Assembly (NCBI GenBank): GCA_020161065.1
Contig: JAIUPH010000028.1
Coordinates: 434,001 to 498,000 of the forward strand
DNA length: 64,000 bases
Direction of reading: 5' to 3'
Origin: Pseudomonadota bacterium
GTDB lineage: Bacteria; Pseudomonadota; Gammaproteobacteria; Burkholderiales; Burkholderiaceae_C
Both the position numbers and the translations under genes were made by a program. This document shows positions 6,999-59,293 of this stretch, one piece after another (position 1 is the stretch's first letter; every line of letters starts with the position of its first letter). Under the pieces are notes generated by a model that worked only from the letters and a program-made list of their open reading frames with translations, was not told the DNA's origin and ran no database searches.

Positions 6999-7036
6999 GG
7001 TGTCGGGCTCTGGTGGGTTTGCTTTGCAGAACGCTT

Positions 7037-37181: not shown

Positions 37182-37601
37182 TCACGTCAGCTCCTCGATC
37201 GTGAGCCGACGGTAGCGATGCACGAAGACGAACGGCACTCGCCGGATCACGTTCATGACGCGCGCCGCATCCACATCCGTTGGTGCGTAGATCAGCAGAA
37301 AGGAGGCACCCTGCGCAGCCGCCTCCAAGTGCACGCGCAGCGCGTCATCGCTCCACCCCAGACGGGGCAAGCCTGCGTGCGCAGCAAGGTTCCTCTGCGC
37401 GCCGGCTTTGACGACCTCGTGCCCATAGAGCGCGCAGTCAGCATCGTCGAAGCCACCGGTCATCAAGTCGCGCCGGACTCGCGCCGCATCTTCTTGCCGA
37501 GAGAATGCTGCGGCCAGTTGGCCGACGGGATAGAAGATGCCGAAGTCAGTGGTACTCACTGGCGGCCTCAGTGCGTCGGACTCAAGTTTCGAGTTGGTCA
37601 T
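37182..37601 (-). CDS. Hypothetical protein, stress-protein (YflT-like) fold
   Basis: A 139-residue cytoplasmic protein without signal peptide. It shows a repeated alpha/beta pattern with FYPVGQLAAAFSRQEDAARVRRDLMTGGFDDADCALYG in the first half and GASFLLIYAPTDVDAARVMNVIRRVPFVFVHRYRRLTIEEL in the second. The segment resembles small general-stress proteins of the YflT type by eye; that is a weak assignment. Last gene of the TetR-controlled operon, 13 bp after the ABM-like gene. Confidence 0.6.
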   Translation of the reverse strand: MTNSKLESDALRPPVSTTDFGIFYPVGQLAAAFSRQEDAARVRRDLMTGGFDDADCALYGHEVVKAGAQRNLAAHAGLPRLGWSDDALRVHLEAAAQGASFLLIYAPTDVDAARVMNVIRRVPFVFVHRYRRLTIEELT

Positions 37602-37614
37602 GTGCGTACAGTCG

Positions 37615-38007
37615 TCACTGAGAGAAAGCCGCGGGCTTGAAAAGCCGTGCAGCGTCGAAGGTGACGGCCGTGTTGTCGCGCAGGGCGATCTGGAATCGGT
37701 TCTCGCCGAACATGCGGCTCCAATCATCTATGCTCTTCCACCGCATCACATGGACGAAGCGCGGAACGCCATTGGAATCCTGGTTTTCGAGCACGTGTTG
37801 CTCGATGAGCCCGGGCTGACCAATGACCGCGCGCGCGATGTTGCTCGCGCCGGTCTGAACTTCCGCCGCCGACCGGCCCGGCACGGCATGCAGCGGCACG
37901 GCCAGCATCACACCGGTTGAGTTGCTCTTGTCCTGGGCCGTCGATGCGCCGGCTTGGCAGAGCATTGCCGCGGCGAGGACGGGCGAAAGCAGATGGATGA
38001 TTTTCAT
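37615..38007 (-). CDS. Exported antibiotic-biosynthesis-monooxygenase-like (ABM) protein
   Basis: A 130-residue protein: signal peptide MKIIHLLSPVLAAAMLCQAGASTAQ, then a dimeric alpha/beta-barrel domain (MLAVPLHAVPGRSAAEVQTGASNIARAVIGQPGLIEQHVLENQDSNGVPRFVHVMRWKSIDDWSRMF). Members act as small cofactor-free monooxygenases or haem/quinone-binding proteins; here the location is periplasmic. Codes in the same operon as the molybdoenzyme. Function unassigned beyond fold. Confidence 0.68.
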   Translation of the reverse strand: MKIIHLLSPVLAAAMLCQAGASTAQDKSNSTGVMLAVPLHAVPGRSAAEVQTGASNIARAVIGQPGLIEQHVLENQDSNGVPRFVHVMRWKSIDDWSRMFGENRFQIALRDNTAVTFDAARLFKPAAFSQ

Positions 38008-38030: not shown

Positions 38031-38630
38031 TCAGATCGGCGGGTTGTCGATGGACGGCAGGTCATGCGTGAGGATCTGCAGCAGGGCGGCGCCCTCCGGG
38101 CGGCTCCAATCACGTGCCAGTTCGGCGATCAGCGTCGTGGTCGCGGTCAGGATCACGCCAGCGCGCTCCATGCGTCGACGGGCGAGTTCCTCCGAGACTT
38201 CGAACGGCGAGCCCGATGCGTCGATCACCGCCTGCACCTGGTAGCCGGCCTCGCGCGCGCTGATGGCCGGCGAGTACAGGCACACGTCAGTCGTCACGCC
38301 CGCCATGATCAGGTTGCGCCGCTGCGTCTTTTCGACCGCCGCGCGGAAGTCGGCGTCCTCCCAGGAGTTGACGGCGCCGCCGCGGCTGATGCGCGCCGCA
38401 TAGGCCTCGGGCAGGATGTCCTTCAGTTCGGGCATCAGCGGGCCCTGGAAGCTGTTCTCGGTGCCCGAGGTGAGCACCACCGGCATGTTCAATGCCTTGG
38501 CCACCTTGGCCAGCGCCAGCGTGTTCTTCTTTGCCACTTCGAGTGGCATCGTCTTGATGAGCTTCATCGTGCCGACCTGGTGGTCGATCAGCAGAAGCGC
38601 CGAGTTGGACGCGTTGAATGTTCCCCACAT
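38031..38630 (-). CDS. Isochorismatase-family (YcaC-like) hydrolase
   Basis: A 199-residue cysteine hydrolase of the YcaC type. The catalytic residues are Asp16 in LLLIDHQVG, a Lys/Arg-region RISRGGAVNSWEDADF and the nucleophile Cys in MAGVTTDVCLYSPAISA. AGGAG precedes ATG 38630. It follows the cytochrome b561 gene by 38 bp. YcaC-like proteins have no firmly known substrate; amide hydrolysis is the usual guess. Confidence 0.85.
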   Translation of the reverse strand: MWGTFNASNSALLLIDHQVGTMKLIKTMPLEVAKKNTLALAKVAKALNMPVVLTSGTENSFQGPLMPELKDILPEAYAARISRGGAVNSWEDADFRAAVEKTQRRNLIMAGVTTDVCLYSPAISAREAGYQVQAVIDASGSPFEVSEELARRRMERAGVILTATTTLIAELARDWSRPEGAALLQILTHDLPSIDNPPI

Positions 38631-38668: not shown

Positions 38669-39199
38669 TCAGAACCACATGCGCCGCAGCAGGTGGTCGC
38701 GTTGAATGAACTGGTGGAACAAGGCAGCGCCTGCGTGCAGCGCGACCAGCCCCGCGAGCACCACGCCGCCGATGGCATGGCCGACGGCTGCGGGTGAAGC
38801 CGAGAAGTCGGGCAGGTCGGCCGGCGAGCCGCCGAAGATCGCCGGCCCGGCGCCGGTGGTTGCGACGAGGCCGATGCCGAGGCTGCACTGCACCAGGATG
38901 GCCACGTACAGCGCGCGGTGCACGAACCACGCGAGTCGTTCCTGCCAGGCGGGCGAGCCGGCGACCGGCTCGGGGCGCTTGTCGGCCAGCCACCACCAGA
39001 GGATGCGGGCCAGCGTGAGAACCAGCACCACGATGGCCAGCGGCAGGTGCAGGCGCAGCAGCGCGGCCTTCGAGGCAGCGTCGGGCGCTGTCGCGATGCC
39101 AAGACCGAGGCCGAGCAGCGTGAAGATCGAGAGCGCGGTAAGCCAGTGGATGGTCACCACCACGGCGCCGTAGCGGTTGGAGACGCTCTTGAGTTGCAT
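38669..39199 (-). CDS. Cytochrome b561
   Basis: A 176-residue, four-helix membrane cytochrome of the bacterial b561 family. Candidate haem-ligand histidines are in VVVTIHWLTALS (helix 1), LLRLHLPLAI (helix 2), WFVHRALYVA (helix 3) and LVALHAGAALFHQFI (helix 4). These proteins exchange electrons with ubiquinone. It lies 11 bp after the iron-sulphur subunit, so it probably connects the molybdoenzyme to the quinone pool. Confidence 0.88.
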   Translation of the reverse strand: MQLKSVSNRYGAVVVTIHWLTALSIFTLLGLGLGIATAPDAASKAALLRLHLPLAIVVLVLTLARILWWWLADKRPEPVAGSPAWQERLAWFVHRALYVAILVQCSLGIGLVATTGAGPAIFGGSPADLPDFSASPAAVGHAIGGVVLAGLVALHAGAALFHQFIQRDHLLRRMWF

Positions 39200-39210: not shown

Positions 39211-40080
39211 TCAGATGCGAGACAGTCTTGTGAAAGGCTGCAACTCGATGGCGCCCAGGTAGGTGCTGCCATCGAGCGTGCCGGCCGCCTGTGCCGTGCC
39301 GGCACCCGGCTTCTCGATACGCAGCGTGTAACGCGCGCCGCGATCGTCCAGCCCGTCGAACTTGAAGTCGCCGAAGGCGTCCGTCGGGGCACGGCGCGGC
39401 TGCGGATCGCCTTCCACCGTCAATTCGACGAGCGCGTTCGACACGTTGTCGGCCTGCCCGTCGGGCGATCGTGCGAACACATTGCCGCCGACGAACTCGC
39501 TGGTGACCAGACTCATGTTGCGGTAGTAGACGCGGGGGCTGGTGCCGAGCTCCGGCTTCGCCACCGTGAGGTTCTGCTGCGCGGCCAATGCACGCATCTC
39601 GTCGTCGCTGACGTGGGCCACGCTCATCGCCCCGCTCGCGCAGGCCTGCGCGCAACGCGGTTGCGTCCAGCCGGCATCGATCAGGTGCGCATCGAAGGTC
39701 CAGTGCTGCGGCAACTCCAGCTCTTCGTTCCAGACCACCGCGCCGTAGGGGCAAGCCTGCACCAGATCGCGGCGGCCGCGCGCCTTGACGGGGTCGATGA
39801 CGACGATGCCGTCCGGGCGCTTCGTCACGGCGCCCTGGCCGGCCTTCACGCACGGCGCGTCGTCGCAGTGGTTGCAGGTGCGCGGCACGTAGGTGACGTC
39901 GACCATGCTGCCGTTGCCACGCACGTGGCGGTCGATGACGAGCCACTCATGCCCGTGCTGCGGCTGCGGGGCCGAGTAGCCGGGAAAGTCGTTGCCGACG
40001 TACTCGTCCTTCATCGCCATCGTGCAGTTGTTGCAGTTGCTGCACTTGGCGACGTCAATGATCAGGTTCCACTTCTTCAT
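39211..40080 (-). CDS. Iron-sulphur subunit, transhydroxylase-beta (AthS/BthS)-like
   Basis: A 289-residue protein. Residues 1-155 form a four-motif ferredoxin region: Cys13-Cys16-Cys19, Cys69-Cys72-Cys77, Cys110 and Cys143-Cys147. Residues ~175-289 are a beta-rich C-terminal domain starting KPELGTSPRVYYRNM, as in the small subunit of Pelobacter pyrogallol transhydroxylase. Compared with that protein (recalled), three cluster ligands are replaced: Met23, Trp127 and Asp130. They would all belong to one cluster, so I expect two [4Fe-4S] clusters instead of three. The start ATG overlaps the stop of the large subunit (ATGA). Confidence 0.88.
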   Translation of the reverse strand: MKKWNLIIDVAKCSNCNNCTMAMKDEYVGNDFPGYSAPQPQHGHEWLVIDRHVRGNGSMVDVTYVPRTCNHCDDAPCVKAGQGAVTKRPDGIVVIDPVKARGRRDLVQACPYGAVVWNEELELPQHWTFDAHLIDAGWTQPRCAQACASGAMSVAHVSDDEMRALAAQQNLTVAKPELGTSPRVYYRNMSLVTSEFVGGNVFARSPDGQADNVSNALVELTVEGDPQPRRAPTDAFGDFKFDGLDDRGARYTLRIEKPGAGTAQAAGTLDGSTYLGAIELQPFTRLSRI

Positions 40081-43052
40081 GCAGCCTCCGCCAGGACGAT
40101 GCCGTCCCACTTCGCGACTTCAACCAGGCAGTTGTTCGGCGCGATGCCGTCCGAGGTCGCAGAGATCGGCTCGCCCGAGGTGAGCAGGTTCATGCAGCCG
40201 CCGCGGTCCACCGGACCGTCAGGGGTGGCGATCAGGTCGAACTCCGCCGACGAGCTGTACGACTTCACCGTGCCGGCGGGCAGGGTCGCCGCGATGTCGA
40301 CCCCGCAAATCACCGCGCCGCGGTCGTTGCGGACCTTGACCAGATCGTTCTGCCGCAACCCGCGCGTTGCGGCGTCTTGCGGGCTCATGCGCAGGATCCA
40401 GTAGGCACGCCCATCCACCGTGATGCGTTGATCATGGATGCCGCTGACCGCCGCGTTCTTGCCGTCGTTCTGCGTGTGGAAGCTGAAGGACGGGTGCGAG
40501 GTCAGCAACTGCAGCGGGAAACGCGCGAGGCGCTCGGGCGTGTGACGCCCCTCGCGCGGCGGCAGGTAGCGATTGACGCTCGGCCGCTTCGGATCCTCGT
40601 CCTCGATGGCCGCCAGCGACTGCGGCACGAACTCGAACTTCGACGACGGGGTGCCCAGGCCGCGACCGACCCCTTCGGCATGCTGCGCGGGGGCCGTGGA
40701 CGTGTCAGGGGTGTCCTTGACGCGACCTTCGGCGAACCAGCGCATCTCGGTCGGGAACTCCATCTCGTCGGGAATGGGCGGCAGGACGTAGTAGCCCTTC
40801 TTCAAAAACTGCCGCCAACTGATCTTCTTGGCCAGGTCGCTGCCGTCGAAGATGCGCTTGCACCAGGTGAGATCGGTGTTGCCGCCTTCGGTGAACATGC
40901 TGGCGCCGCCCAGGCGCTCCAGGATGTCGGCGAAGATCTGGTAGTCCGACTTCGACTCGCCCAGCGGCTCGATGGCCTTGTGCTGCATCACGAAGACGCG
41001 GTGGTTCAGCTGGTAGTGGCACAGCGGCAGCACACCGCCCGAGGCCGCCGCCTCGGAGATGTCGTAGCGCTCGAACGAGGTGCACGCCGGCAGGATGACG
41101 TCGCTGAACTTCGCGTCGCCTTCCATGTAGATGCACTGGCTGACCGCGAACTCCAGCCGCGGGCTGCGGAAGGCCTCGACCATGCGGCCCGATTCGAGGA
41201 TCGCGCCCATGTTCGAGGTGCCGTAGCGGTACAGCATGTGCACCGTCGAATAGCCGGGCGCCGGGTACTCGTAGGGCTGCATCTGCGCCTGGAACGAGGA
41301 CGGGTCCATCGGCCGGCCCTCGACGTGCTCGCCCAGGATGGCCTCGGCGATGCGCTGGCGCGGCACCAGCTGGCGGCACGTGTCCAGCGTGATCACGTTG
41401 GGCATGCGCTGGTAGTTGTTCACCGCCGCCGCGCTGTTGACCAGATCGCCCGAGATGCCGCCTTCCGAGTAGCCGGGGAAATAGAAGGTCAACTCCATGC
41501 GTGCGCTGGTGCCGAGGCTGCCGAAGTTGATGCCGGGCTTGCCCCAACCCTGCATGGCCATCATCTGCACCATGCAGCGCGTCCACATCGGGCCGGTGTC
41601 GGCACGGCAGGCGCCGCCGAGGCCGGCGCCCAGGCCGCCCGCAGCGAGGTAGGTCTTGCGGCTGGCCCAGCGGCGCGCGAGGCTGCGCACGTCCTTGGCG
41701 GGCACGCCGGTCTCGGCTTCCTGCCACTCAGGCGTCTTGGGCAGGCCGTCGGTCTTGCCGAGCAGGTAATCGCGCCAGGTGTCGAAGCCGGTGGTGCGCT
41801 GGGCGACGTACTCCTTGTCGTAGGTGCCCTCGATCACCCACTGGTACATGATGGCCTGGGCCATCGCGGCGTCGGTGCCGGGGCGGATCGGGATCCACTT
41901 GCCGGGGAACATCTGCGCCGTCATGTTCAGGTGCGGATCGATGTGCACGAACTCGATGCAGAGCTCCTGCGCCCACTGCCTGCGTTGCGTTCCTTCCTGG
42001 CCCGCATACACCCCGGCGGTGCTTTCCGGGTCGCTCGACCAGAACACGATCATCTCGGCGTTCTGCAGGCAATCCTCGGTGGTGCCGACGAAGCCGGGCA
42101 GGCCCAGCCGGACGTTGTTGCCGAAGTGGTGCATTGCGCCCTGGTACCACCCCTCCCAGCTGATGGCGGAGAAGCCGACACGGCTGGCACCGATGACGTT
42201 GGTGAAGCGCCAGAGCGCCGACAGCCAGTAGTTCACGTTGCCCCACTGGTGGTGCGCCGGGTAGGTCACCAGCATCGATCCCGGCCCGTGCTCTCGCTTC
42301 TGGCGCTTGATCTCCGAGGAGACGATGTCCAGCGCCTCGTCCCAGCTGATGCGCTGATAGCCGGAGATGCCGCGCGTGTGGGTGTTGCGCTCGCCGTTGG
42401 GATCGAAGTCCACCCGCTTCATCGGGTACAGCACGCGGCGGTCCGAGTAGACCTGCGACTTGAAGGCCAGCGCATGCGCCGAAACGGTCGACTGGCGGCG
42501 CGGCGTAAACGACTTTCCGCGCGCCTTGATCGTCCACGGCTGCGGGTCGCTGTCGTCGAAGTCGATCGGCGTCGTGCGAATGATCTTGCCGTCCTTCACG
42601 TAGACGAAGATCGGGCCGCCGTTGGTCAGGTTGGTGTAGCGCGTGGTGCCGTCACGCATGGTCGTGCCGAAGCGCCAGCTCGCGGTCTTGATCTGGTTCA
42701 TCAGCGTGCTGAACCAGACCAGCCCGGCGTCGGAGCCGCTTGCGGTCGCCTTGTAGGTCTTGAGTGCGTCGACGACGGTCAGCGGGTCCGGCGCCAGGCT
42801 GAGGATGCTCAGCGCCACCTCGGCGTCGCGGAAGCCGAGCACGGCATCGGGCTTCGGGTGCAACCCAGACGCACCCCTCACCTTGCCGCCTTTGAAGATG
42901 AGCTGGTGGGCGACGCTGCCGTCGCGCAACCGGATCTGCAGGACCAGATCGCGTGACTGGAGCTTGCGGCGCACGCCGGCATCGAGCCGCGCGGCGGCGG
43001 TGATCACCAGCGGCAGGGCCTTCAGGATCGTTCTGAGGATCGTCTTCTTCAT
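40077..43052 (-). CDS. SCP2-fused molybdopterin oxidoreductase, transhydroxylase/resorcinol hydroxylase-like
   Basis: A 991-residue protein. Residues ~138-991 match, from start to end, the large subunit of pyrogallol-phloroglucinol transhydroxylase (DMSO-reductase superfamily; about 875 residues). Active-site landmarks are kept: His267/268 in PAHHQWGN, the Mo-ligand Ser298 in SWEGW and Tyr in FYFPGYSEGG. No Tat signal and no N-terminal cluster Cys motif, so it is cytoplasmic. Residues ~30-125 are extra and look like an SCP2 (sterol carrier) domain: LVLQIRLRDGSVAHQLIFKGGKV then PDAVLGFRDAEVALSIL. A shift in substrate towards a hydrophobic phenol or terpenoid is inferred. Divergent from tetR; start ATG 43052. 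Confidence 0.87.
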   Translation of the reverse strand: MKKTILRTILKALPLVITAAARLDAGVRRKLQSRDLVLQIRLRDGSVAHQLIFKGGKVRGASGLHPKPDAVLGFRDAEVALSILSLAPDPLTVVDALKTYKATASGSDAGLVWFSTLMNQIKTASWRFGTTMRDGTTRYTNLTNGGPIFVYVKDGKIIRTTPIDFDDSDPQPWTIKARGKSFTPRRQSTVSAHALAFKSQVYSDRRVLYPMKRVDFDPNGERNTHTRGISGYQRISWDEALDIVSSEIKRQKREHGPGSMLVTYPAHHQWGNVNYWLSALWRFTNVIGASRVGFSAISWEGWYQGAMHHFGNNVRLGLPGFVGTTEDCLQNAEMIVFWSSDPESTAGVYAGQEGTQRRQWAQELCIEFVHIDPHLNMTAQMFPGKWIPIRPGTDAAMAQAIMYQWVIEGTYDKEYVAQRTTGFDTWRDYLLGKTDGLPKTPEWQEAETGVPAKDVRSLARRWASRKTYLAAGGLGAGLGGACRADTGPMWTRCMVQMMAMQGWGKPGINFGSLGTSARMELTFYFPGYSEGGISGDLVNSAAAVNNYQRMPNVITLDTCRQLVPRQRIAEAILGEHVEGRPMDPSSFQAQMQPYEYPAPGYSTVHMLYRYGTSNMGAILESGRMVEAFRSPRLEFAVSQCIYMEGDAKFSDVILPACTSFERYDISEAAASGGVLPLCHYQLNHRVFVMQHKAIEPLGESKSDYQIFADILERLGGASMFTEGGNTDLTWCKRIFDGSDLAKKISWRQFLKKGYYVLPPIPDEMEFPTEMRWFAEGRVKDTPDTSTAPAQHAEGVGRGLGTPSSKFEFVPQSLAAIEDEDPKRPSVNRYLPPREGRHTPERLARFPLQLLTSHPSFSFHTQNDGKNAAVSGIHDQRITVDGRAYWILRMSPQDAATRGLRQNDLVKVRNDRGAVICGVDIAATLPAGTVKSYSSSAEFDLIATPDGPVDRGGCMNLLTSGEPISATSDGIAPNNCLVEVAKWDGIVLAEAA

Positions 43053-43201: not shown

Positions 43202-43846
43202 ATGCCTGCCAAACAGACATCCCCTACCAGCGGATCACGCGGCCGCCCGCGCGATCCCGCCCGCGTCGAGCGAGTGATCGATGCCGCGAAGCGCGCGTTC
43301 CTGGCTGATGGCTTCGAGAGAACCAGCGTCGACGCGATCGCGCGCGACTCAGGCATCTCCAAGGTGACGATCTACAACTACTTTCCGACCAAGCGGGCGC
43401 TGTATGCCGCTGCCATGCAGTCCGCAGATCGGGTCGAACAAGTCGAGTTCGCACCGGTTCGCCTGGATCCGGAAATGCCGAAGGAAGGCCTGAGGCGAAT
43501 CGCGCGGCAGTTCCTGAAGTTCCAGCGGGACGACGCGACCCTCAGCAAACACAGGACCATCTACGCCGAAGGCGCAGCGCAGCCTGAAGTGGCGCTAGCC
43601 TTCTATCAGCAAGGTCCGAGTCGGAAGATGAGCCAAGTTGCCGGGTACCTGCGCGCCTGCAGTGAAGCCGGCAGCCTGTCGGTACGCGACCCGGATTTGG
43701 CAGCTGAGCAGTTCCTCTGCCTCTTCTTTGGCCGGGGACACGTGAAGGCGCTGCTGGGCCTGGGTAAGCCCACCGCAGCCGAAGACGAGAGCCTGGTGCG
43801 CTCGAGCGTCGACCTCTTCCTATGCGTATACGGCTTGGGGCGTTGA
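43202..43846 (+). CDS. TetR-family transcriptional repressor
   Basis: A 214-residue TetR protein: the N-terminal HTH (RVIDAAKRAFLADGFERTSVDAIARDSGISKVTIYNYFPTKRALYAAAM, residues ~21-70) and a C-terminal ligand-binding domain of the AcrR/AefR-like type (FLKFQRDDATLSKHRTIYAEGAAQPEVALAFYQQGP). It is divergent from the six-gene molybdoenzyme operon and has two matching inverted-repeat operators on either side, so it almost certainly represses that operon and probably itself. Inducer unknown. Confidence 0.92.
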   Translation: MPAKQTSPTSGSRGRPRDPARVERVIDAAKRAFLADGFERTSVDAIARDSGISKVTIYNYFPTKRALYAAAMQSADRVEQVEFAPVRLDPEMPKEGLRRIARQFLKFQRDDATLSKHRTIYAEGAAQPEVALAFYQQGPSRKMSQVAGYLRACSEAGSLSVRDPDLAAEQFLCLFFGRGHVKALLGLGKPTAAEDESLVRSSVDLFLCVYGLGR

Positions 43847-44183: not shown

Positions 44184-45326
44184 TCAAAGCGCCCTGGCAA
44201 TGATCAACTTCTGAATGTGGCTCGTGCCTTCGTAGATCTTGGTCACGCGCACGTCGCGCCAGTAGCGTTCGACGGGGAAGTCGTTCAGGTAGCCGTAGCC
44301 GCCGTGGATCTGCAGGGCGTCGGAGCAGACGGCTTCGGCGATCTCGCTGGCGAACAGCTTGGCCATCGAGGCTTCCTTGGCGCAAGGGATGCCGGCCTGG
44401 CACAGGCGAGCGGCGTGCAGCATGAAGCGTTCGGCCACTTCCACCTTGGTGGCCATGTCGGCGAGGTCGAAGCTCACGCCCTGCAGCTTGATGATGGGCG
44501 CGCCGTAGGCCTCGCGCTGCTTGGCGTAGGCGATGGCCGCGTCCAGCGCGGCGCGCGCCGCGCCGATGGCCACGGCGGCGATGGCCACGCGGCCTTCCGA
44601 CAGGCTGGCCATGATGCGGCGGTAGCCCGAGCCTTCCTCGCCGATCAGGTCGTGCACCGGCACGCGGCAGTCGTCGAGCTGGATCTGCGCGACATGCGCC
44701 GAACGTTGGCCCAGCTTGTGCTCGACGCGCGCCACCTGGTAGCCGGGCTGCTTGGCGTCGACGATCAGCAGGCTGGCGCCGTTCTTGCCCGCGGCCTTGT
44801 CGGTCACCGCCAGCACCAGGCCGACGCTGGCCTCGCTGCCGTTGGAGATGAACTGCTTGCTGCCGTTGATGACGTAGTGGTCGCCGTCGCGCCGCGCGAA
44901 GGTGCGGAAGGCCGCCGTGTCGGAGCCGGCATGCGGCTCGCTCAGCAGGAAGGCGCCGATGTGCTCGCCGCTGGCCAGCCGCGCCAGGTACTGGCGCTGC
45001 TGCGCCTCGGTGCCGACGCGGCTGAGCATGAAGCCCACCGAGTTGTGCACGTGCAGCAGCGTCGCGAAGCCGGCGTCGGCGGCGGCGAAGGCTTCGATGG
45101 CCAGGCAGTACTCGACGAAGCTGGCGCCCGAGCCGCCGTGCGCTTCGGGCGTCAGCATGCCCATGAAGCCCAGCTCGCCCACGGTCTTCAGCTCGGCGCG
45201 CGGCCAGGCGGCGCTGCGGTCGCGCTCGGCGGCGGTCGGCGCCACCACGTCCTGCGCCACGCGGCGGGCGCTGTCGCGGATGAGGATTTCCTGCTCGCTC
45301 AGGAAGGCGGTCGAGGGGTCGCTCAT
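44184..45326 (-). CDS. Acyl-CoA dehydrogenase (paralogue A)
   Basis: A 380-residue FAD enzyme of the acyl-CoA dehydrogenase family. Visible signatures are AFLLSEPHAGSDTAAFRT (FAD/substrate region, about 125), INGSKQFISNGSEA, REAYGAPIIKLQGVSFDLADMATKVEVAERF and the C-terminal QIHGGYGYLNDFPVERYWRDVRVTKIYEGTSHIQ, in which the Glu of YEGTS is the short-chain-type catalytic base. It is nearly collinear with the dehydrogenase at 62416-63558. ATG 45326 has GGAG upstream. Last gene of an eight-gene operon, 13 bp after the RND transporter. Confidence 0.93.
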   Translation of the reverse strand: MSDPSTAFLSEQEILIRDSARRVAQDVVAPTAAERDRSAAWPRAELKTVGELGFMGMLTPEAHGGSGASFVEYCLAIEAFAAADAGFATLLHVHNSVGFMLSRVGTEAQQRQYLARLASGEHIGAFLLSEPHAGSDTAAFRTFARRDGDHYVINGSKQFISNGSEASVGLVLAVTDKAAGKNGASLLIVDAKQPGYQVARVEHKLGQRSAHVAQIQLDDCRVPVHDLIGEEGSGYRRIMASLSEGRVAIAAVAIGAARAALDAAIAYAKQREAYGAPIIKLQGVSFDLADMATKVEVAERFMLHAARLCQAGIPCAKEASMAKLFASEIAEAVCSDALQIHGGYGYLNDFPVERYWRDVRVTKIYEGTSHIQKLIIARAL

Positions 45327-45339
45327 GGTCGGGGCTCCT

Positions 45340-47775
45340 TCAGGCCGGTTCGGCGTGGGCGGCGGCGGCATCGGCGGCCGGCCGCGGTTGGGCACGCTGC
45401 GCCACGCGCGGCAGCAGGAAGTGCGAGAGGGCCGGAATCAGCACCAGCGCGCCGAGCATGTTCCACACGAACATGAACGTCAGCAGGATGCCCATGTCGG
45501 CCTGGAACTTGATGGGCGACCAGGCCCAGGTGATGACGCCGGCGGCCAGCGTCACGCCGACCAGCGCCACCACCTTGCCGGTGAAGCGCAAGGCGTGGCG
45601 GTAGGCCTCGGCGAGCGGCGCGCCGGCGCGCTGCAGCGCCAGCTGGATGCTCAGCAGGTACAGCGCATAGTCGACGCCGATGCCCACGCCGAGCGCGATC
45701 ACCGGCAGCGTGGCCACCTTGACGCCCATGCCCAGCGCGACCATCAGCGCCTCGCACAGCACCGAGGTGATGATGAGCGGCACCACCGTCACCACCACCG
45801 CGCGCCAGCTGCGGAAGGTGATGAAGCACAGCACGATGACGGCGGCGTACACGTACAGCAGCATGGTCACGTTGGCCTGGCGCACGACGATGTTGGTCGC
45901 CGCCTCGATGCCGGCCGAGCCGGCGGCCAGCTTGAACTGGCGCTCGGGCGTGCTGTGCGCGCGCGCAAAGGCGTCGGCCGCCTGCACCACGCGGTCCAGC
46001 GTCTCGGCCTTGTGGTCGGCCAGGTAGGCCACCACGGGCATCACCGAGCATTCGGTGTTGAAGAGGTCGGGGTTGGTCGTGCTGGCAGTGCGCGCGGCGT
46101 AGTTCAGCACGTCCTGGTTGGGCGACAGCGTCAGCCACTTGTTGCTGCCTTCGTACGAGCCGGCGGTGATCTTGCGCACCGCGTCGGGCAGCGACACCGT
46201 GGTCTGCACGCCGGGCACCTGCTGCAGCGTCCAGCCCAGGCGGTCGGCCTCGATCAGCGTGGCGTACTCCAGGCAGCCTTCGGGCTTGGTCTTGACGATC
46301 ACCGCGAACTGGTCGCTCGACAGCGCGTAGCGGCTGGTGACGTAGGCGTTGTCGAGGTTGTAGCGCGAGTTGGGCCGCAGCTCGGAGGCGCCGGCATCGA
46401 GGTCGCCCACCTTCAGCTGCGTGCTGACCGCGAAGCCGACGACCAGCAGCACGGCCGACGCGCCAATCGCCGCCAGCGCCCAGCGCCGCTCGGTGAAGCG
46501 CGCCAGCAGCGCCCACATCCCTTGGTTGGGCTGCTGCTCGGCGCGCAGGCTGCGCTGCGCGGCCGCCGCGCTGACGCCGGTGTACGACAGCATCACCGGC
46601 AGCAGCACGAGGTTGGTGAAGACCAGCAGCGCCACGCCGATGCTGGCGGTGATGGCCAGTTCCTGGATCACCGCGATGTCGATCAGCATCAGCACCGCAA
46701 AGCCCACCGCATCGGCGGCCAGGGCCGTCAAGCCGGCGAGGAACAGGCGGCGGAAGGTGTAGCGCGCGGCCACCAGGCGGTGCGTGCCGCGGCCCACGTC
46801 CTGCATGATGCCGTTCATCTTCTGCGCGCCGTGGCTGACGCCGATGGCGAACACCAGGAACGGCACCAGGATCGAATACGGGTCGAGCGAGTAGCCGAGC
46901 GCGGTGACCAGCCCCAGTTGCCACAGCACCGCGATCAGCGAGCAGCCCAGCACCAGCACCGTGCTGCGCACGCAGCGCGTCCACCAGAAGATGATGGCGG
47001 CCGCGATGGCCGCGGCCACCGCGAAGAACACCATCACCTGCTGCAACCCGTCGAGCAGGTCGCCCACCACCTTGGCGAAGCCGACGATGCGGATCTCGAC
47101 ATCGCCGCCGGCCTTTGCGTACTTGGCGCGGATGTCTTCCAGCCGGCGCGACAGCTCCCAGTAGTCCAGCGGCTTGCCGCTGGCAGCTTCCTTGTCGAGC
47201 AGCGGCACGAAGATCATGCTGGACTTGTAGTCGTTGCCGACCAGGCTGCCCAGGATCTGCGCGCGCGCGATGTTCTGCTTGAGCTGGTCGATGTCCTTGG
47301 CCGATCCGGCGTAGCGGTCGGGCATCACCGGGCCGCCGGCAAAGCCTTCCTCGGTGACCTCGTTCCAGCGCACCACCGGCATCCACAGCGACTTGACGTT
47401 GGCGCGGTCGACGCCCGGCGTCAGGAACAGCTCGTCGTTGATCTGCTTGAGCGTCTGCAGGTAGGCCGGGTCGAAGATGTCGCCGCGGCGGTTTTCCACC
47501 ACCACGCGGATCGCGTTGCCCAGGCCCTTCAGGTCCTTGCGATATTCGAGGAAGTTCTTGATGTACGGCTGCTGGTGCGGAATCGTCTTCTCGAAGGCGG
47601 CGTTCAGCGTCAGCTTGGTCGCCTGCCAGCCCAGCAGCAGCGTCAGCAGCAGGCACAGCGCAATGACCAGCGGCCGGTGGTTGAAGATCAGCCGCTCGAA
47701 GCGGTTGCCCGATTCGCGGTCGAAGTCCTTCAGCTCGCGGATCGCGGGCATGTCGTCGATGGGGGTGCTGATCAT
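45340..47775 (-). CDS. RND-superfamily (MMPL/HpnN-like) membrane transporter
   Basis: A 811-residue inner-membrane protein with the duplicated RND layout: TM1 (NHRPLVIALCLLLTLLLGWQ), a first periplasmic domain (~60-240), a bundle of TM helices around VLVLGCSLIAVLWQLGLVTALGYSLDPYSILVPFLVFAIGVSHGAQKMN, then a second copy from ALLARFTERRWALAAIGASAVLLVVGF with its own periplasmic domain and GVKVATLPVIALGVGIGVDYALYLLS. There is no membrane-fusion or TolC partner. Relatives move lipids or hydrophobic molecules. It is co-transcribed with the DUF1302/DUF1329/YCF48 genes, a recurrent set. Confidence 0.88.
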   Translation of the reverse strand: MISTPIDDMPAIRELKDFDRESGNRFERLIFNHRPLVIALCLLLTLLLGWQATKLTLNAAFEKTIPHQQPYIKNFLEYRKDLKGLGNAIRVVVENRRGDIFDPAYLQTLKQINDELFLTPGVDRANVKSLWMPVVRWNEVTEEGFAGGPVMPDRYAGSAKDIDQLKQNIARAQILGSLVGNDYKSSMIFVPLLDKEAASGKPLDYWELSRRLEDIRAKYAKAGGDVEIRIVGFAKVVGDLLDGLQQVMVFFAVAAAIAAAIIFWWTRCVRSTVLVLGCSLIAVLWQLGLVTALGYSLDPYSILVPFLVFAIGVSHGAQKMNGIMQDVGRGTHRLVAARYTFRRLFLAGLTALAADAVGFAVLMLIDIAVIQELAITASIGVALLVFTNLVLLPVMLSYTGVSAAAAQRSLRAEQQPNQGMWALLARFTERRWALAAIGASAVLLVVGFAVSTQLKVGDLDAGASELRPNSRYNLDNAYVTSRYALSSDQFAVIVKTKPEGCLEYATLIEADRLGWTLQQVPGVQTTVSLPDAVRKITAGSYEGSNKWLTLSPNQDVLNYAARTASTTNPDLFNTECSVMPVVAYLADHKAETLDRVVQAADAFARAHSTPERQFKLAAGSAGIEAATNIVVRQANVTMLLYVYAAVIVLCFITFRSWRAVVVTVVPLIITSVLCEALMVALGMGVKVATLPVIALGVGIGVDYALYLLSIQLALQRAGAPLAEAYRHALRFTGKVVALVGVTLAAGVITWAWSPIKFQADMGILLTFMFVWNMLGALVLIPALSHFLLPRVAQRAQPRPAADAAAAHAEPA

Positions 47776-47812
47776 GATGCGGTGCGCCTCGGGTACGCGT
47801 CGGGGGCCGGCG

Positions 47813-48865
47813 TCAGGGCGCCGGCTTCAGCGGCTGGATGCGAACGCCGCCGATGCCGGCCAGCGCAATGGCGCCGCCGGCCGCCTCGGCCACGGCGAAG
47901 GTCGGCGCCGCGGCGCGCTGTTCAACGCGGCTGAAGCTGGCGCCGTGGTCGCTGCTGCGCAGCAGGTGGCCGGCCTGGCTGGCCAGCAGCAGCGTGCCGT
48001 CGGCGCGCAGCAGCGCGCTGCTCAGGCCGGCGGCCACGCCGGTCTCGGCCTTGGTCCAGCTGGCGCCGCCGTCGGTGCTGCGCCAGGCGTTGCCGCGCAG
48101 GCCGTAGACCAGCGTCAGGCGCTCGTCGCCCACCACGCCGAACAGCGTGCCCTGGTAGGGCAGCGGCACGGCGGTGAAGCGCTGCTTCTGGCGGTCGAGC
48201 TTGAGCACCAGCCCCTGCTCGCCGACGATGAACAGCGTGCCGCCGGCCGGGCGGATGGCGTACAGGTGCATGCCCTTGGGGTTGTCGCTGCGCTCGCTCC
48301 ACGCCGTCCAGCGGGCGCCGCCGTCCTCGGTGCGCAGGATCAGGTTGAACGCGCCGACGGCCCAGCCGTCCTTCTCGTTCTCGAACCACACGTCGAGCAG
48401 CGCCTTGTCGGTGCCGGCATCGGCCGCCGCGCCGCCGGCCGGCGCCAGCAGCGCGCCGATGGCGCGGCCGTCCAACTGGCGCTGCCAGGTGGCGCCGCCG
48501 TCGCTGGTGTGGAGCACCACGCCTTCGTGGCCCACGGCCCAGCCGAGCTTGGGCGTGGCGAAGTGCAGCGCCGTCAGGTCGGCGCTGACCGGCACCTCGG
48601 CCTGCGCCCAGGCCACGCCGTCGTCGCTGTACAGCACGTGGCCGCGCTGGCCGGCGACGACCAGCCGCGTGCCGGCGCGGACCATGGCGTTCAAGGGCGC
48701 GCGGATGGCCAGCGCGCTCTTGGTGGCCGGCACGTCCAGCGGCGTGCGCACCGCTACGTCGGCGGCGGCGGCGGCGGCGGCGGACACCGCGGCAGTGGCC
48801 GCGGCCGCGACCGCGACCACGCCGAGCACCATCGCGGCCAGCGCGGCGGATGGGGATGTCTTCAC
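47813..48865 (-). CDS. YCF48-like beta-propeller, exported
   Basis: A 350-residue protein with an N-terminal signal segment (AALAAMVLGVVAVAAAATAAVSAAAAAAADVAV) and repeated BNR/YCF48 blades marked by SDDGVAWAQAE, TSDGGATWQ, TEDGGARWTAW, STDGGASWTKAE and SSDHGASFSRVE. YCF48/Hcf136-type propellers act as assembly factors for membrane complexes. Here it accompanies the RND transporter and may help assemble the envelope export or import route. Start GTG 48865 with AGGCG upstream. 37 bp before the RND gene. Confidence 0.83.
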   Translation of the reverse strand: MKTSPSAALAAMVLGVVAVAAAATAAVSAAAAAAADVAVRTPLDVPATKSALAIRAPLNAMVRAGTRLVVAGQRGHVLYSDDGVAWAQAEVPVSADLTALHFATPKLGWAVGHEGVVLHTSDGGATWQRQLDGRAIGALLAPAGGAAADAGTDKALLDVWFENEKDGWAVGAFNLILRTEDGGARWTAWSERSDNPKGMHLYAIRPAGGTLFIVGEQGLVLKLDRQKQRFTAVPLPYQGTLFGVVGDERLTLVYGLRGNAWRSTDGGASWTKAETGVAAGLSSALLRADGTLLLASQAGHLLRSSDHGASFSRVEQRAAAPTFAVAEAAGGAIALAGIGGVRIQPLKPAP

Positions 48866-48894
48866 GATCGCCTGCCTTCGCCGGGCGCCGGGTG

Positions 48895-50244
48895 CTAGCG
48901 CACGCCGGCGGCGGCCAGCGAATCGGCCGTCCACTGCGAGTCGGGGCTCAGCGTGTCGGACACCTTCATGCCGCTGGCGCCGGGCCAGACGTTGATGTAG
49001 TAGCCGCCGCCGATCAGGTCGTAGTGGCCCGAGGGGATGCTGATCGGCGCCGGCACGTCGTAGCTCTGCGTGATGTACGCAAAGCCCGGGCGCCAGAGCT
49101 GGCCGCGGCCGTCGTACTGGTCGGCCGCCAGCACGTTCCAGCTGTCCTCGTCCAGGTAGAAGGTGCGGCGCGAATACACGTGGCGCTGGCCTTCCTTGAG
49201 CGTGGCTTCCACCACCCACATGCGGTGCAGTTCCCAGCGCACGAGGTCGGGATTGATGAACTTGGCCTGGAACAGCTCTTCGGGCTTGTCGTAGTAGGTG
49301 AAGCGGTAGGTGTTGTAGGGCACGTACACCTCCTTCTTGCCGACCAGCTTCCAGTCGAAGCGGTCGGGCTTGCCGTTGAAGAGGTTCACGTCGTCGACGG
49401 TCGAGATGCCGGCGGTGCTGGGGTTGGGCGTGTCGTAGGCCAGGTCGGGCGCCAGCCGCACGCGGCGCTGCCCCGGCAGGTACTGCCAGGCGCGGCGGCC
49501 CTTGGCGCCGTCGAAGCTCTCGGCGGTCATCACCGACTCGCCGGCACGCCGCGCCGGCGCCATGTAGTTGGCGCGCGCGCGCGTCAGCACCTGCAGCTCT
49601 TTGGTCTCGTCGTAGTACGGCCGCTCGATGGTCCACACGCCGCCGGTGGACATCACCATCTGGCCGGCGCTGTTGACGTTGTAGGCCGAGTACTTGGGCA
49701 GCACCACCGACATGCCGTCGAAGCGCGCGATGTAGTTCATCATCGCCTCGCCGCCGGTCTTCGGAATCGGGAACGGAATGCCGGCGCGGCTGCCGGTGAA
49801 GCCGAAGCCGTCGTCGGTCATCTTGGCGCGCACGGCGTTCTTGACGGTGTTGTCGATCACGAACTTCGGATAGGCCGCCGTGCGGTGCGTGGGGTACACG
49901 TCGATGCGGTAGCCGGGCAGCGACTTCATCAGCGCCTTGGTGCCCTCGGTCAGCTTGTCGGCATGCTTGTCCATGCTCTTGGCGTCGATCGAGAACAGCG
50001 GCTTCTCGTTGGCGTAGGGGTCGGGGCGCACGCCGCGCGCCTTGTCGAAGCCGGCCGGCGCGCTGGTCAGGCCGCCGGTGTATTCGGGGATCGTGCCGTC
50101 CTTGTTGCCGGCCTTTTCGGCGCCCACGGGCGTCAGCGTCGTGCCCAGCTTGCGGGCTTCGTCGGCCGACAGCGCGGCGTGGACGAAGCCGACCTGGGCG
50201 CACAGCAGGCCTGCGCCCAGCATGGCCATCACCAGCTTTTTCAT
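48895..50244 (-). CDS. DUF1329 periplasmic protein
   Basis: A 449-residue protein with signal peptide MKKLVMAMLGAGLLCAQVGFVHA and full-length DUF1329 similarity: LGTTLTPVGAEKAGNKDGTIPEYTGGL near the N-terminus, then Tyr/Trp-rich strands such as HRMWVVEATLKEGQRHVYSRRTFYLDEDSWNVLAADQYDGRGQLWRPG. The fold resembles LolA/LolB-like lipid carriers as far as I recall. It is always found with DUF1302 outer-membrane proteins, as here. Probably shuttles a hydrophobic substrate across the periplasm; that is inference. Confidence 0.9.
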   Translation of the reverse strand: MKKLVMAMLGAGLLCAQVGFVHAALSADEARKLGTTLTPVGAEKAGNKDGTIPEYTGGLTSAPAGFDKARGVRPDPYANEKPLFSIDAKSMDKHADKLTEGTKALMKSLPGYRIDVYPTHRTAAYPKFVIDNTVKNAVRAKMTDDGFGFTGSRAGIPFPIPKTGGEAMMNYIARFDGMSVVLPKYSAYNVNSAGQMVMSTGGVWTIERPYYDETKELQVLTRARANYMAPARRAGESVMTAESFDGAKGRRAWQYLPGQRRVRLAPDLAYDTPNPSTAGISTVDDVNLFNGKPDRFDWKLVGKKEVYVPYNTYRFTYYDKPEELFQAKFINPDLVRWELHRMWVVEATLKEGQRHVYSRRTFYLDEDSWNVLAADQYDGRGQLWRPGFAYITQSYDVPAPISIPSGHYDLIGGGYYINVWPGASGMKVSDTLSPDSQWTADSLAAAGVR

Positions 50245-50273
50245 GGTTCGTGTCTCCGGTATCAGAAGGTGGA

Positions 50274-51992
50274 TCAGAAGGTGGTCTTGAAGGTGAAGTA
50301 CACGGCGCCGCGGTCCTTGAGCATGGCGGTGCTGCCGTTGTAGACCGCCACCGCGCCGGTGGTGGCGTTGGTGTTGAAGCTGCCGAAGTAGTCGACGTAC
50401 TTGAGGTCGAAGCGGTAGCGGCTTTGCACGTCCAGCGCCAGGCCGATGGCGTAGCTGCCGGCGCCCTTGTTGCCGCCCAGGCTGACGGCCGAGTTGCCGT
50501 CGACGCCGATCGACGCGCTCACCGGCAGCGCCAGGTCGGCGCCTGGGAACACCTGGTACCAGGTGGGCGTGAAGCCGATCGCGATGCCCACCGCGTCCTT
50601 GGTCACGCGGTCGATGTTGGCGGCGTTGGCGGCGTAGGTCGCCGAGCCCTTGAACACGTTGTACGGGTCGCTCGTGACCTTGCTCCAGTGGCTCCAGGTC
50701 AGCTCGGCGTTCCAGCTCGCGGCGTTGTACAGCGGCGTGCTCGGCAGGCTGCCGATGGCGTTGACCACGGCGTGCCAGGTGTTGCCGCGGGCGCCCAGCG
50801 TCTGGCCCGGCTGCGGCAGCGCGGTGGTGGCCGTCACGAGGTTGACGCCGCCGCTCACCAGCGGCATGTTGCGGCGGTGGTTGAGGTCCACGCCGACGCT
50901 GATGCCGGCGATCTGCCGCGTCAGGCTCAAGCCCAGCATCTCGATGTCCGAGCCGTACATCAGCAGGTACTGCTGCGGAATGGGCGGCGATGCCGTCGGC
51001 CGCAGCGTGGCCTGCTGCGGCACCTTGTCGCTGAACTTGCGGTAGTACAGGCCCGCGGTGCCGTCCAGCCACTCGGGGCTCCAGCGCATGGCCAGGCCCC
51101 AGTCGCCGCGGTCCTTGGGCTTGACGTCGGCGGCGCGCGTCACCAGCCGCGTCGTGCCGCCCACCGGCAGCAGGATGGCCTCGCCGCCGTCGAGCAGCGC
51201 GTCGCTGAAGCCCAGGTAGCTGCCGGCCTCGGGGAAGCGGTAGCTCTTCCATTCCAGGTAGTACTGCGCAGCGAGCGACAGCGTCGGCGTGACCTGGATC
51301 TGGCCCGACACCTGGTTCAGCGGCCGGTACAACTCCTTGGCCTCGATGCCCGGCGTGGCCAGTGCCTTGGCCTGGTCGAGCGGCGCCTGGCCGTACGAGA
51401 TGCCGTGGATGGCGCCGCCGCCGAGCAGTGCCTCGCCCCAGTTGATGGTGTGGCGGCCCAGGCGCAGCGTGGCCGCCATGCCGCCCACGTCGCCGGCGGC
51501 GAAGACGAAGGCATCGAGGAACTCGCCCGAGGCGCCCTTGAAGTAGCGCCGCGTGACGTTGCTGAGCCCCAGCGCCTGCACGCCGCCGGCCAGGTGGTTG
51601 GAGGTGGCCACGCTGGTGTTGTCCAGCGCGCCGGTGTAGGCCTGGTCGTACCACGCGGCGCCGCTGACGCGCGCGCCCAGCGACTTGCGGTAGACCACGT
51701 CGAACTCGCTGAGCAGGTCGATGCGGTTGGTGACGATGGCGTGGCGCTTGAAGTTGCGGTCGCCGTCGTCGTTGTTGATGGCGCGCAGGATCGCCTCGTT
51801 CTGGCTGTCGGCGCGCAGGCCCAGGTTGTAGCGCACGGTGTTGTCGAAGCGGACCTGCACGTCGTCGTTGCCGACGTCGATGCCGATGGCCGAGGCGGCC
51901 GTGCAAAGGCCCAGGCAGCAGGCGGCCGCGGCCAGGCCGACGGCGCGCCGGCGCGGCGCTTTGCGCAAAGTCATCACTCGGTCGATGGACAT
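50274..51992 (-). CDS. DUF1302 outer-membrane beta-barrel protein
   Basis: A 572-residue protein with a signal peptide (RRAVGLAAAACCLGLCTAASA) and a long series of amphipathic strands ending in the aromatic C-terminal AVYFTFKTTF expected for outer-membrane barrels. DUF1302 motifs such as VQVRFDNTVRYNLGLR, LRLGRHTINWGEALL and WSPEWLDGTAGLYYRKFSDK are present. It is likely the outer-membrane pore of a transport route with DUF1329 and the RND protein. GAGGAG precedes the ATG. Confidence 0.9.
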   Translation of the reverse strand: MSIDRVMTLRKAPRRRAVGLAAAACCLGLCTAASAIGIDVGNDDVQVRFDNTVRYNLGLRADSQNEAILRAINNDDGDRNFKRHAIVTNRIDLLSEFDVVYRKSLGARVSGAAWYDQAYTGALDNTSVATSNHLAGGVQALGLSNVTRRYFKGASGEFLDAFVFAAGDVGGMAATLRLGRHTINWGEALLGGGAIHGISYGQAPLDQAKALATPGIEAKELYRPLNQVSGQIQVTPTLSLAAQYYLEWKSYRFPEAGSYLGFSDALLDGGEAILLPVGGTTRLVTRAADVKPKDRGDWGLAMRWSPEWLDGTAGLYYRKFSDKVPQQATLRPTASPPIPQQYLLMYGSDIEMLGLSLTRQIAGISVGVDLNHRRNMPLVSGGVNLVTATTALPQPGQTLGARGNTWHAVVNAIGSLPSTPLYNAASWNAELTWSHWSKVTSDPYNVFKGSATYAANAANIDRVTKDAVGIAIGFTPTWYQVFPGADLALPVSASIGVDGNSAVSLGGNKGAGSYAIGLALDVQSRYRFDLKYVDYFGSFNTNATTGAVAVYNGSTAMLKDRGAVYFTFKTTF

Positions 51993-52040
51993 GCCAACAA
52001 TCTCCTCGGTTAGTTCGTTATTTGGACGTGCAGCCGCCGC

Positions 52041-52946
52041 TTACTTGGCGGCGCCGCCCATCACCGCCTGCACCAGCGCGGCCACCTGCTGGTTCGAGTC
52101 GTCGTAGTAGCGGCTGGTGCTCCAGTCGGCGATCTGCTCGAAGTGCTCCGCCAGCGCCTCGGGCGTCGGCTGCGCGAAGAAGGTCGGCGCGGTGTCGACG
52201 ATGCGGGCGGTGGAAAAGGCGCCGCCGCCGGCCGACATCGTCACCTTCGAGGGCGCGTTCTCGCTCACCAGGAACAGCGCCGCCGGCGTCACCGCCTCGG
52301 GCTTGAGGGCGGCGAACATCTCGGGCGTCAGGATGTCCTCGGTCATGCGCGTGGCGCCGATCGGGGCCAGCGTGTTGACGCGGATGTCGTTCTTCCTGCC
52401 CTCGATGGTGAGCATGTGCATCAGGCCGACCAGCGCCACCTTGGCGGCGCCGTAGTTGGCCTGGCCGAAGTTGCCGAACAGGCCCGAGGCCGAGGTGGTC
52501 ATCAGGATGCGGCCGTAGTTCTGCTCGCGCATCAGTTCCCACACCGCCTTGGTGCAATGGACCGAGCCCATCAGGTGCACGTCGACCACGGCGCGGAAGT
52601 CGGCCATCTCCATCTTCGAGAAGGTCTTGTCGCGCAGGATGCCGGCGTTGTTGATCAGCACGTCGACGCGGCCGAACTCGGCCTTGGCCTGCTCGACCAT
52701 GCCCAGCACCTGTTCGAAGTCGCAGACGTTGGCGCCGTTGGCAATGGCCTGGCCGCCGGCGGCGCGGATCTCGTCCACCACCTTGGCGGCGGCTTCCGAC
52801 GAGCCGCCCTTGCCGTCGCGGCTGCCGCCGAAATCGTTGATCACCAGCTTGGCGCCGCGGCGCGCCAGCTCCAGCGCGTGCGAACGTCCCAGGCCGTTGC
52901 CGGCACCCGTCACGATGGCCACGCGGCCGTCGAATCGAATCGTCAT
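52041..52946 (-). CDS. SDR dehydrogenase (multifunctional-enzyme-type 3-hydroxyacyl-CoA dehydrogenase)
   Basis: A 301-residue short-chain dehydrogenase. The cofactor motif is VAIVTGAGNGLGRSHALELARRGAKLVINDFGG (about 9-41); NNAGILRD (about 99), catalytic Ser in TTSASGLFGNFGQ and Tyr-x3-Lys in NYGAAKVAL follow. The long, Asp/Gly-containing N-terminal segment and length match the dehydrogenase domain of peroxisomal multifunctional enzyme 2 (HSD17B4), which oxidises (3R)-hydroxyacyl-CoA. Next to MaoC and enoyl-CoA hydratase it fits beta-oxidation. Confidence 0.92.
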   Translation of the reverse strand: MTIRFDGRVAIVTGAGNGLGRSHALELARRGAKLVINDFGGSRDGKGGSSEAAAKVVDEIRAAGGQAIANGANVCDFEQVLGMVEQAKAEFGRVDVLINNAGILRDKTFSKMEMADFRAVVDVHLMGSVHCTKAVWELMREQNYGRILMTTSASGLFGNFGQANYGAAKVALVGLMHMLTIEGRKNDIRVNTLAPIGATRMTEDILTPEMFAALKPEAVTPAALFLVSENAPSKVTMSAGGGAFSTARIVDTAPTFFAQPTPEALAEHFEQIADWSTSRYYDDSNQQVAALVQAVMGGAAK

Positions 52947-53066
52947 CTCGTCACCTTCGAAGAATCGAGAGAAAAGGGCTGCCCGTGCCGTGCGTTCGAA
53001 TGCCCCGCACGGGCTGCATGCGTGTTGGCGCCCGCGGGCGCCGCAGGGGTGGCGTCAGTACCGCCG

Positions 53067-53519
53067 TCAGTACCGCCGCGTGATGGACTCGGCCACGCAG
53101 ACGGGCTTGTCGCTGCCGGCGATCTCCATCGTCACTTCGATCGTCAGCTGCGCGCCGCCGTTGTCGATGGGCTCCCAGGCCAGCAGCTTGAAGTGCCCGC
53201 GCAAGCGGCTGTCCACCGGCACCGGCTTGATGAAGCGCACCTTGTTGAAGCCGTAGTTCACGCCCATCACGCCCTTGCGGATTTCGAAGGCGCTGACCAT
53301 CAGCGCCGACATCAGGCTGAGCGTGAGGAAGCCGTGCGCGATCGGCGCGCCGAAGGGGCCGCTCTTGGCGCGCTCGGGGTCGACGTGGATCCACTGGTGG
53401 TCGCCGGTGGCCTCGGCGAACAGGTCGATGCGCCGCTGGTCGACCAGCAGCCAGTCGCTGCTGCCGATGACCTGGCCCACCAGGGGCTTGAGGTCGGCGA
53501 CGGTGTCGTAGCTCTTCAT
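53067..53519 (-). CDS. MaoC-like (R)-enoyl-CoA hydratase
   Basis: A 150-residue hot-dog-fold dehydratase. The MaoC catalytic motif is visible as the Asp/His pair in FAEATGDHQWIHVDPERAKSGPFGAPIAHGFLTLSLM (about 37-73). Such enzymes hydrate trans-2-enoyl-CoA to the (3R)-hydroxy product, which the neighbouring MFE-type SDR would oxidise. 13 bp after the enoyl-CoA hydratase gene. Confidence 0.93.
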   Translation of the reverse strand: MKSYDTVADLKPLVGQVIGSSDWLLVDQRRIDLFAEATGDHQWIHVDPERAKSGPFGAPIAHGFLTLSLMSALMVSAFEIRKGVMGVNYGFNKVRFIKPVPVDSRLRGHFKLLAWEPIDNGGAQLTIEVTMEIAGSDKPVCVAESITRRY

Positions 53520-53531
53520 GTCGCCTCCCGG

Positions 53532-54302: not shown

Positions 54303-54366
54303 CGGTGCCTCCAGGTCGTGCAGTGATCGACTGGAGGTCAGCTTAGGGGCGCGGCCGGCGCGCGCG

Positions 54367-54385
54367 CCCCTTACTTTGGGATGGG
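54367..54385 (-). promoter_or_regulatory. Shared promoter element, copy 1
   Basis: On the plus strand CCCCTTACTTTGGGATGGG lies 65 bp upstream of the enoyl-CoA hydratase ATG. A 15/19 identical copy is found 60 bp upstream of the acyl-CoA dehydrogenase gene that starts the other minus-strand operon (63618-63636). Same orientation and nearly the same distance point to a binding site for one activator, plausibly the MalT-like regulator encoded between them. Confidence 0.55.
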
Positions 54386-54459
54386 TGGGCGGGGGGGCGC
54401 TCGCAAACCCTAGGCGCTGCCGGACAACGGTCAACGCCCTTTCGCCCCCCAAAGCCTCG

Positions 54460-55104: not shown

Positions 55105-55303
55105 GGCCGGTTCCTCTTTCGTTGTCTGTCGACGCCCGACGTTTGCCGCGCGCGGGCCCCGGGGCGCAGGCGGGGCGCGGGTCGCCGGGCCGGCCTTGAT
55201 GGACCACGGCGCGTCTTTGCGGCCAGCCCAGAATAGGCTTGCGCCGAGCACGGGTCAACCGGCGCGCGCAAGCCTCCTGCCGTACATCAAGCGTCGCCGT
55301 TGG

Positions 55304-58015: not shown

Positions 58016-58134
58016 GGCTTGAGACACCGAGGGCCGCGCCGCGAACGGCACCGAGGACGGCGCCGCGGGCGGCGCCGGCAGCGGAGTATCGACCAAGCCT
58101 GCGCCGCCCCCCTGCCCCGCGCTCAGCCCCGCGC

Positions 58135-59286: not shown

Positions 59287-59293
59287 GGCACGC

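Follow-up and report, generated by a model that had tools for sequence, protein, structure and literature searches.

An SCP2-fold domain at the N-terminus of a transhydroxylase-like molybdenum subunit in a proteobacterium with aerobic traits

A branch of bis(molybdopterin guanine dinucleotide) (bis-MGD) enzymes known from anaerobic polyphenol metabolism is found here, with a built-in SCP2-fold domain, in proteobacteria that show aerobic traits, and several of the genes lie beside oxygenases. What such an enzyme might do there is the question raised by a gene at 40077..43052 (minus strand, ATG at 43052) of the window, as we call the whole analysed stretch of 64,000 nucleotides from contig JAIUPH010000028.1 of a Pseudomonadota bacterium (assembly GCA_020161065.1). 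The gene encodes a large, molybdenum-binding subunit of 991 amino acids, with an SCP2-fold N-terminus followed by a transhydroxylase-like bis-MGD core. The initial annotation had read it as an SCP2-like domain fused to an aromatic hydroxylase; the combination of an SCP2-fold domain with a transhydroxylase-like core stood, and the term aromatic hydroxylase proved less secure. The explanation that we favour, tentatively and at somewhat under even confidence, is a two-subunit bis-MGD enzyme with an acquired SCP2-fold domain, which would present a lipophilic, phenol-like substrate for O2-independent chemistry feeding catabolism.

The SCP2-fold domain and the history of the fusion

The domain spans residues 1 to about 126 (42675..43052, minus strand), as delimited by the structure model, fold matches, hhalign and the homologue alignment. 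The predicted N-terminal model has the SCP2 fold and matches the alkylsulfatases SdsA1 and Pisa1, through their SCP2-type domain, as well as UbiJ. Compared by hhalign with pooled SCP2 members, the domain gave a probability of 94.2 (E 1.1e-7) and beat 50 of 50 shuffles; the matches to separate SCP2 subgroups were weaker than to the pooled set, with probabilities of 62, 42, 9, 0.5 and 0.2. The window protein did not reach the gathering score of PF02036 and had no match to it even at E<=1, so that the curated SCP2 model overlooks the domain in this protein; among the homologues, PF02036 weakly matched 12 of 38 (best E 0.0078). A search of PDB sequences with the N-terminal profile returned 0 matches. 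The proposed SCP2 similarity is carried by the fold model and hhalign and not by PF02036, and on the predicted structure the assignment of the domain to the SCP2 fold was confirmed. Since the first helix is charged in most homologue rows and is part of the SCP2 model, it is unlikely, as judged by eye only, to be a signal peptide.

The same domain order recurs in independent homologues. We examined 42 large-subunit sequences, which include 21 of the 39 listed matches from the group around genome G882, and all 38 with an intact N-terminus carry the domain. As for the remaining four, a contig end truncates L016, an interruption breaks L034 and a stop lies in L062; L029 is without the domain. An assembly or frame artefact as the source of the fusion was ruled out by its recurrence in the 38 sequences. 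The initial annotation had also named beforehand the possibility that the N-terminal segment is common to all resorcinol hydroxylase large subunits; that it is common to the whole branch was ruled out by two sequences only, the large subunit of pyrogallol-phloroglucinol transhydroxylase (TH) from Pelobacter acidigallici (PDB 4v4c, chain A), where the segment has no counterpart, and L029/L044, which both lack the domain.

The SCP2 domain and the core share one history, their identities being correlated across the 38 sequences (Pearson r = 0.95, 703 pairs). Moreover, the SCP2 part is under purifying selection, with omega of 0.07-0.23 in 9/9 pairs (core, 0.02-0.20). Short stand-alone proteins resembling the domain (frames of 123-248 amino acids, a few of them containing a stop) were found in 24 of 398 genomes of the phylum, every one in the organism's own GTDB class. 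The simplest account would be that a single fusion event joined such a small protein to the N-terminus of the large subunit. Two plasmid records deserve mention. A Pseudomonas aeruginosa plasmid (L035:9995-10387) encodes a hypothetical protein of 130 amino acids resembling the SCP2-type domain (25% identity, E 6e-8), which lies near rubredoxin genes and has no Pfam match at 0.01. In a Sinorhizobium terangae plasmid (L034:6088-10586) the copy is broken, a transposase gene at 6592-7692, IS110-like by eye, interrupting it near the SCP2/core junction.

Full-length homologues were found in the organism's own genome, in three named genome records plus a fourth at a contig edge (incomplete), on plasmids of Salipiger, Burkholderia, Paraburkholderia, Ensifer, Rhizobium and Cupriavidus, and in further relatives. 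With the own genome counted, matches occur in 4/148 relatives, 2/369 genomes of the class and 6/399 of the order; one of these last six, G1159, also holds the domain-free L029. Around G882, which shares the organism's GTDB class but not its order, 38 of the 60 genomes searched have matches; within one family the matches extend to 35 of 37 genomes, fragments counted. The fusion is thus widespread in that family and scarce outside it. The own genome also holds a paralogue of the large subunit (L036, C37:320501-340000), 54% identical and retaining the residue equivalent to TH Asp174; around it lie counterparts of the MMPL, YCF48 and DUF1329 genes seen in the window.

The molybdenum core and the iron-sulphur relay

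Residues 137-984 align by phmmer with residues 5-869 of 4v4c_A (E 9e-261), as expected from the collinearity described initially, whereas the second PDB match, trimethylamine N-oxide reductase, is much weaker (E 1.1e-71) and acetylene hydratase gives E 6.9e-10. Three Pfam families are found in the subunit: AhtL-like_1st (PF21423; residues 146-199, 42456..42617, minus strand; 97.6 bits against a cut-off of 27), Molybdopterin and Molydop_binding. By sequence, the large subunit belongs on the AhtL/transhydroxylase branch. Across the phylum PF21423 was found in 1/398 genomes, namely the own genome.

The residues first pointed out in the active site are kept in the TH alignment: the molybdenum ligand Ser298 (codon 42159..42161, minus strand; TH Ser175) in (D)SWEGW, His267/268 (His144/145) and Tyr528 (Tyr404), together with Trp299 (Trp176). 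We take His144, Asp174 and Tyr404 to be the catalytic residues of TH, and this trio is incomplete here, as His267 and Tyr528 are present and Ile297 (codon 42162..42164, minus strand) replaces Asp174. Asp occupies the position in 37 of the 42 sequences and Ile in the window protein, L016, L017, L018 and L030, which form one side of a tree branch with support 100/98. In addition, TH Arg153, Trp354 and Tyr560 correspond to Trp276, Leu478 and Val674. Arg153 is retained in none of the 42 sequences and Trp354 in one, and therefore both changes are a trait of the entire group.

The small iron-sulphur (Fe-S) subunit (39211..40080, minus strand; 289 amino acids) is encoded with a 4-base overlap with the end of the large-subunit gene and aligns with 4v4c_B over 279 residues (E 4.9e-64). 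By our own count 4v4c_B has 12 Cys in cluster motifs, and the TH small subunit presumably carries three 4Fe-4S clusters. The window protein keeps 9 of these 12, and 8 Cys are invariant among 34 small subunits. The CxxC pair (CTMC in TH) has become WTFD-like in 33 of the 34, among them the partners of the incomplete large subunits L016 and L034; only L044 retains it. In the usual ferredoxin pairing, this pair and the Cys at positions 23 and 143 make up one cluster. Because the four affected positions form one cluster by this pairing, one Fe-S cluster of the relay is probably gone, which would favour redox-neutral chemistry or at least disfavour electron export along a TH-like chain. It is these missing ligands, together with Ile297, that make the designation aromatic hydroxylase less secure, even with the core and the Ser, His and Tyr residues in place, and the large subunit should not be classed as a pyrogallol transhydroxylase. 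The window subclade would offer a natural experiment on mechanism, with Asp changed to Ile and probably one Fe-S cluster fewer. The distant homologue L029/L044 (L044:8448-11911; 874 amino acids) is without SCP2 and without PF21423, and the small subunit of L044 retains further cluster Cys besides the CxxC pair; it is possibly another hydroxylase of the transhydroxylase branch.

Neighbouring genes and the function of the enzyme

Downstream of the small-subunit gene come four more genes of the same orientation, separated by 11 to 38 bases, in what appears to be one operon: a cytochrome b561-type membrane protein (38669..39199; PF01292), an isochorismatase/YcaC-like hydrolase by Pfam (38031..38630) and two proteins of 130 (37615..38007) and 139 amino acids (37182..37601) with no Pfam match at 1e-4, the longer frame of the latter from 37727 likewise. 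A TetR/AefR-type regulator (43202..43846, plus strand) is divergent, upstream of the large-subunit gene. Beyond it, at 44184..60508 on the minus strand, Pfam identifies an acyl-CoA dehydrogenase, an MMPL transporter, YCF48-like, DUF1329 and DUF1302 proteins, an SDR, an enoyl-CoA hydratase, a LuxR-type regulator and two further acyl-CoA dehydrogenases. These last two lie side by side at 58135-60508 and are presumably of the kind paired in steroid side-chain degradation. The aerobic appearance of the organism, assumed from the outset, is in line with the four COX1-family matches in its genome.

Within the clade of the window type, a Rieske oxygenase (best NCBIfam matches HcaE/HcaF, the alpha subunits below cut-off) lies near both L016 and L018. 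It is accompanied by an SDR and a protein of the ferredoxin-reductase type; for L018 the SDR, and for L016 the reductase, was recognised by eye. In L017 the small subunit is followed by a P450-family gene. Beside the Salipiger homologue L030 lies an isochorismatase-family gene whose product is 41% identical over 188 amino acids to the YcaC-like hydrolase of the window. In the other alpha/beta clade, the neighbours on annotated plasmids include VOC and FAH-type genes as well as genes for acyl-CoA synthetase and for OmpW or outer-membrane transport proteins; the VOC protein of L066 is closest to HpaD, below cut-off. Four annotated plasmid records, that of L030 included, name the enzyme just 'molybdopterin-dependent oxidoreductase'. 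Among 13 clustered loci of the G882 group, at least 6 have VOC and at least 4 each have MoeA, a dimethyl sulfoxide (DMSO)-reductase-type chaperone, HiPIP and MFS; gene calls were mechanical and the family names are taken from L107. HiPIP, MoeA and the chaperone recur beside the fused enzyme at L107, L106, L040 and L097.

A hydrophobic substrate would fit these neighbours, judging by their family assignments. Counted in favour of our preferred explanation were the outer-membrane transport/OmpW, acyl-CoA synthetase, VOC, FAH-type, Rieske, P450, MoeA and chaperone genes and, in the window, DUF1302, DUF1329, MMPL and the acyl-CoA dehydrogenases. The domain with its predicted fold, its history shared with the core, the selection on it, the substitutions in the active site and the missing Fe-S Cys are computed results, and the substrate handling and the chemistry are inferred. 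A phenol-like, lipophilic compound, coming from the membrane or an uptake system, would be picked up by the SCP2 domain, which would hold its lipophilic part and offer the ring to the nearby molybdenum centre; there a hydroxyl group would be added, moved or removed independently of O2. For the window subclade, the reaction is probably redox-neutral and different in detail from pyrogallol transhydroxylation, since Ile replaces Asp and the Fe-S relay is reduced. The product would be passed on to the aerobic catabolism of hydrophobic aromatics or isoprenoid/steroid-like compounds. Should the substrate indeed be lipophilic, the enzyme would open a way to ring chemistry without oxygen for greasy phenols or isoprenoid-like compounds. 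The broader proposal of a new class of lipid-handling, O2-independent molybdenum hydroxyl-transfer enzymes of aerobic proteobacteria, acting on lipophilic or membrane-borne phenols with no catalytic Asp and a cut-down Fe-S relay, is more speculative, and we hold it with low confidence.

Several observations weigh against the explanation that we favour. No ring-cleaving enzyme was found among the 17 window proteins scanned, all between 37182 and 60508, and the own genome has no close homologue of the L016 Rieske enzyme (best 40% over about 200 amino acids). Neighbour sets vary between clades. The adjoining cytochrome b561 gene suits a redox rather than a neutral reaction, and the loss of cluster ligands is uneven, since the Cys at position 23 is retained in 3 of the 33 small subunits lacking the pair and that at position 143 in 14, the window's included. 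Finally, SCP2 folds can also serve docking, and omega is higher in the SCP2 part than in the core in 8/9 pairs.

These last two points lead to the strongest alternative, in which the SCP2-fold domain plays no part in ligand handling and serves for docking or membrane anchoring, the substrate being an ordinary small phenol. The domain is also less conserved than the core in mean pairwise identity (47% vs 65%). Furthermore, the SCP2-type protein UbiJ also organises a protein complex (PMC6747719) and has been modelled at the membrane (PMC9499169). The outer-membrane transport proteins next to several homologues, however, better suit a lipophilic substrate, and we consider the docking role unlikely, if the most serious competitor. 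More doubtful is that the enzyme is essentially a resorcinol or pyrogallol hydroxylase for low oxygen with a dispensable extra domain: the full-length alignment with TH and the conserved Ser, His and Tyr residues speak for it, but Asp174 is replaced in the window clade, Arg153 and Trp354 are lost in practically the whole group, Fe-S ligands are missing and the supposedly dispensable part is under purifying selection. Modification of an isoprenoid quinone precursor or other membrane lipid, that is, biosynthesis instead of catabolism, has a functional precedent in UbiT-UbiU-UbiV (PMC6747719) and would suit the near-universal occurrence in one family of the same class, unlike an accessory catabolic gene, but it is the least probable reading given the sporadic occurrence among the window's relatives and the catabolic-looking neighbours on annotated plasmids.

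Comparison with known systems

TH transfers a hydroxyl group between phenols, pyrogallol and tetrahydroxybenzene. The enzyme described here resembles it in a core aligned over its full length, in the molybdenum-ligand Ser, His144/145 and Tyr404 and in the paired Fe-S small subunit. It differs in that TH has no SCP2 domain, possesses Asp174, Arg153, Trp354 and Tyr560, and has a small subunit with all 12 cluster-type Cys. In the titles and abstract openings covered, with most subscription journals outside that scope, there was no description of this fusion or its function, and SCP2 was not found in the text of a molybdoenzyme superfamily survey (PMC10100899). The kind of enzyme is known; new, as far as could be seen, are its architecture, the loss of cluster ligands and the clade with Ile in place of Asp.

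The same survey describes RhL and transhydroxylase as cytoplasmic, Ser-liganded hydroxylating enzymes, and the resorcinol hydroxylase RhLS of Azoarcus anaerobius, a TH relative, is likened to the present enzyme by this description only (PMC10100899). SdsA1, Pisa1 and UbiJ share the SCP2-type domain matched by the model, yet they are different enzymes, and in the alkylsulfatases the domain is C-terminal. UbiJ is of interest for ligand binding as well, as its SCP2 domain is a proposed binder of polyisoprenoid intermediates (PMC9499169). An SCP2 protein partnered with an O2-independent aromatic hydroxylase, the closest precedent for the mechanism proposed here, is seen in UbiT-UbiU-UbiV, where UbiT is needed with the hydroxylases UbiU-UbiV for O2-independent ubiquinone synthesis and a ubiT-ubiU fusion occurs in two Zymomonas mobilis genomes (PMC6747719); unlike the molybdenum enzyme here, UbiU and UbiV are U32-type 4Fe-4S proteins. 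The catechol dehydroxylases of gut Actinobacteria are also bis-MGD enzymes acting on aromatic hydroxyls, but they lie near acetylene hydratase and away from pyrogallol hydroxytransferase (PMC7028382), whereas the large subunit described here is far closer to TH than to acetylene hydratase.

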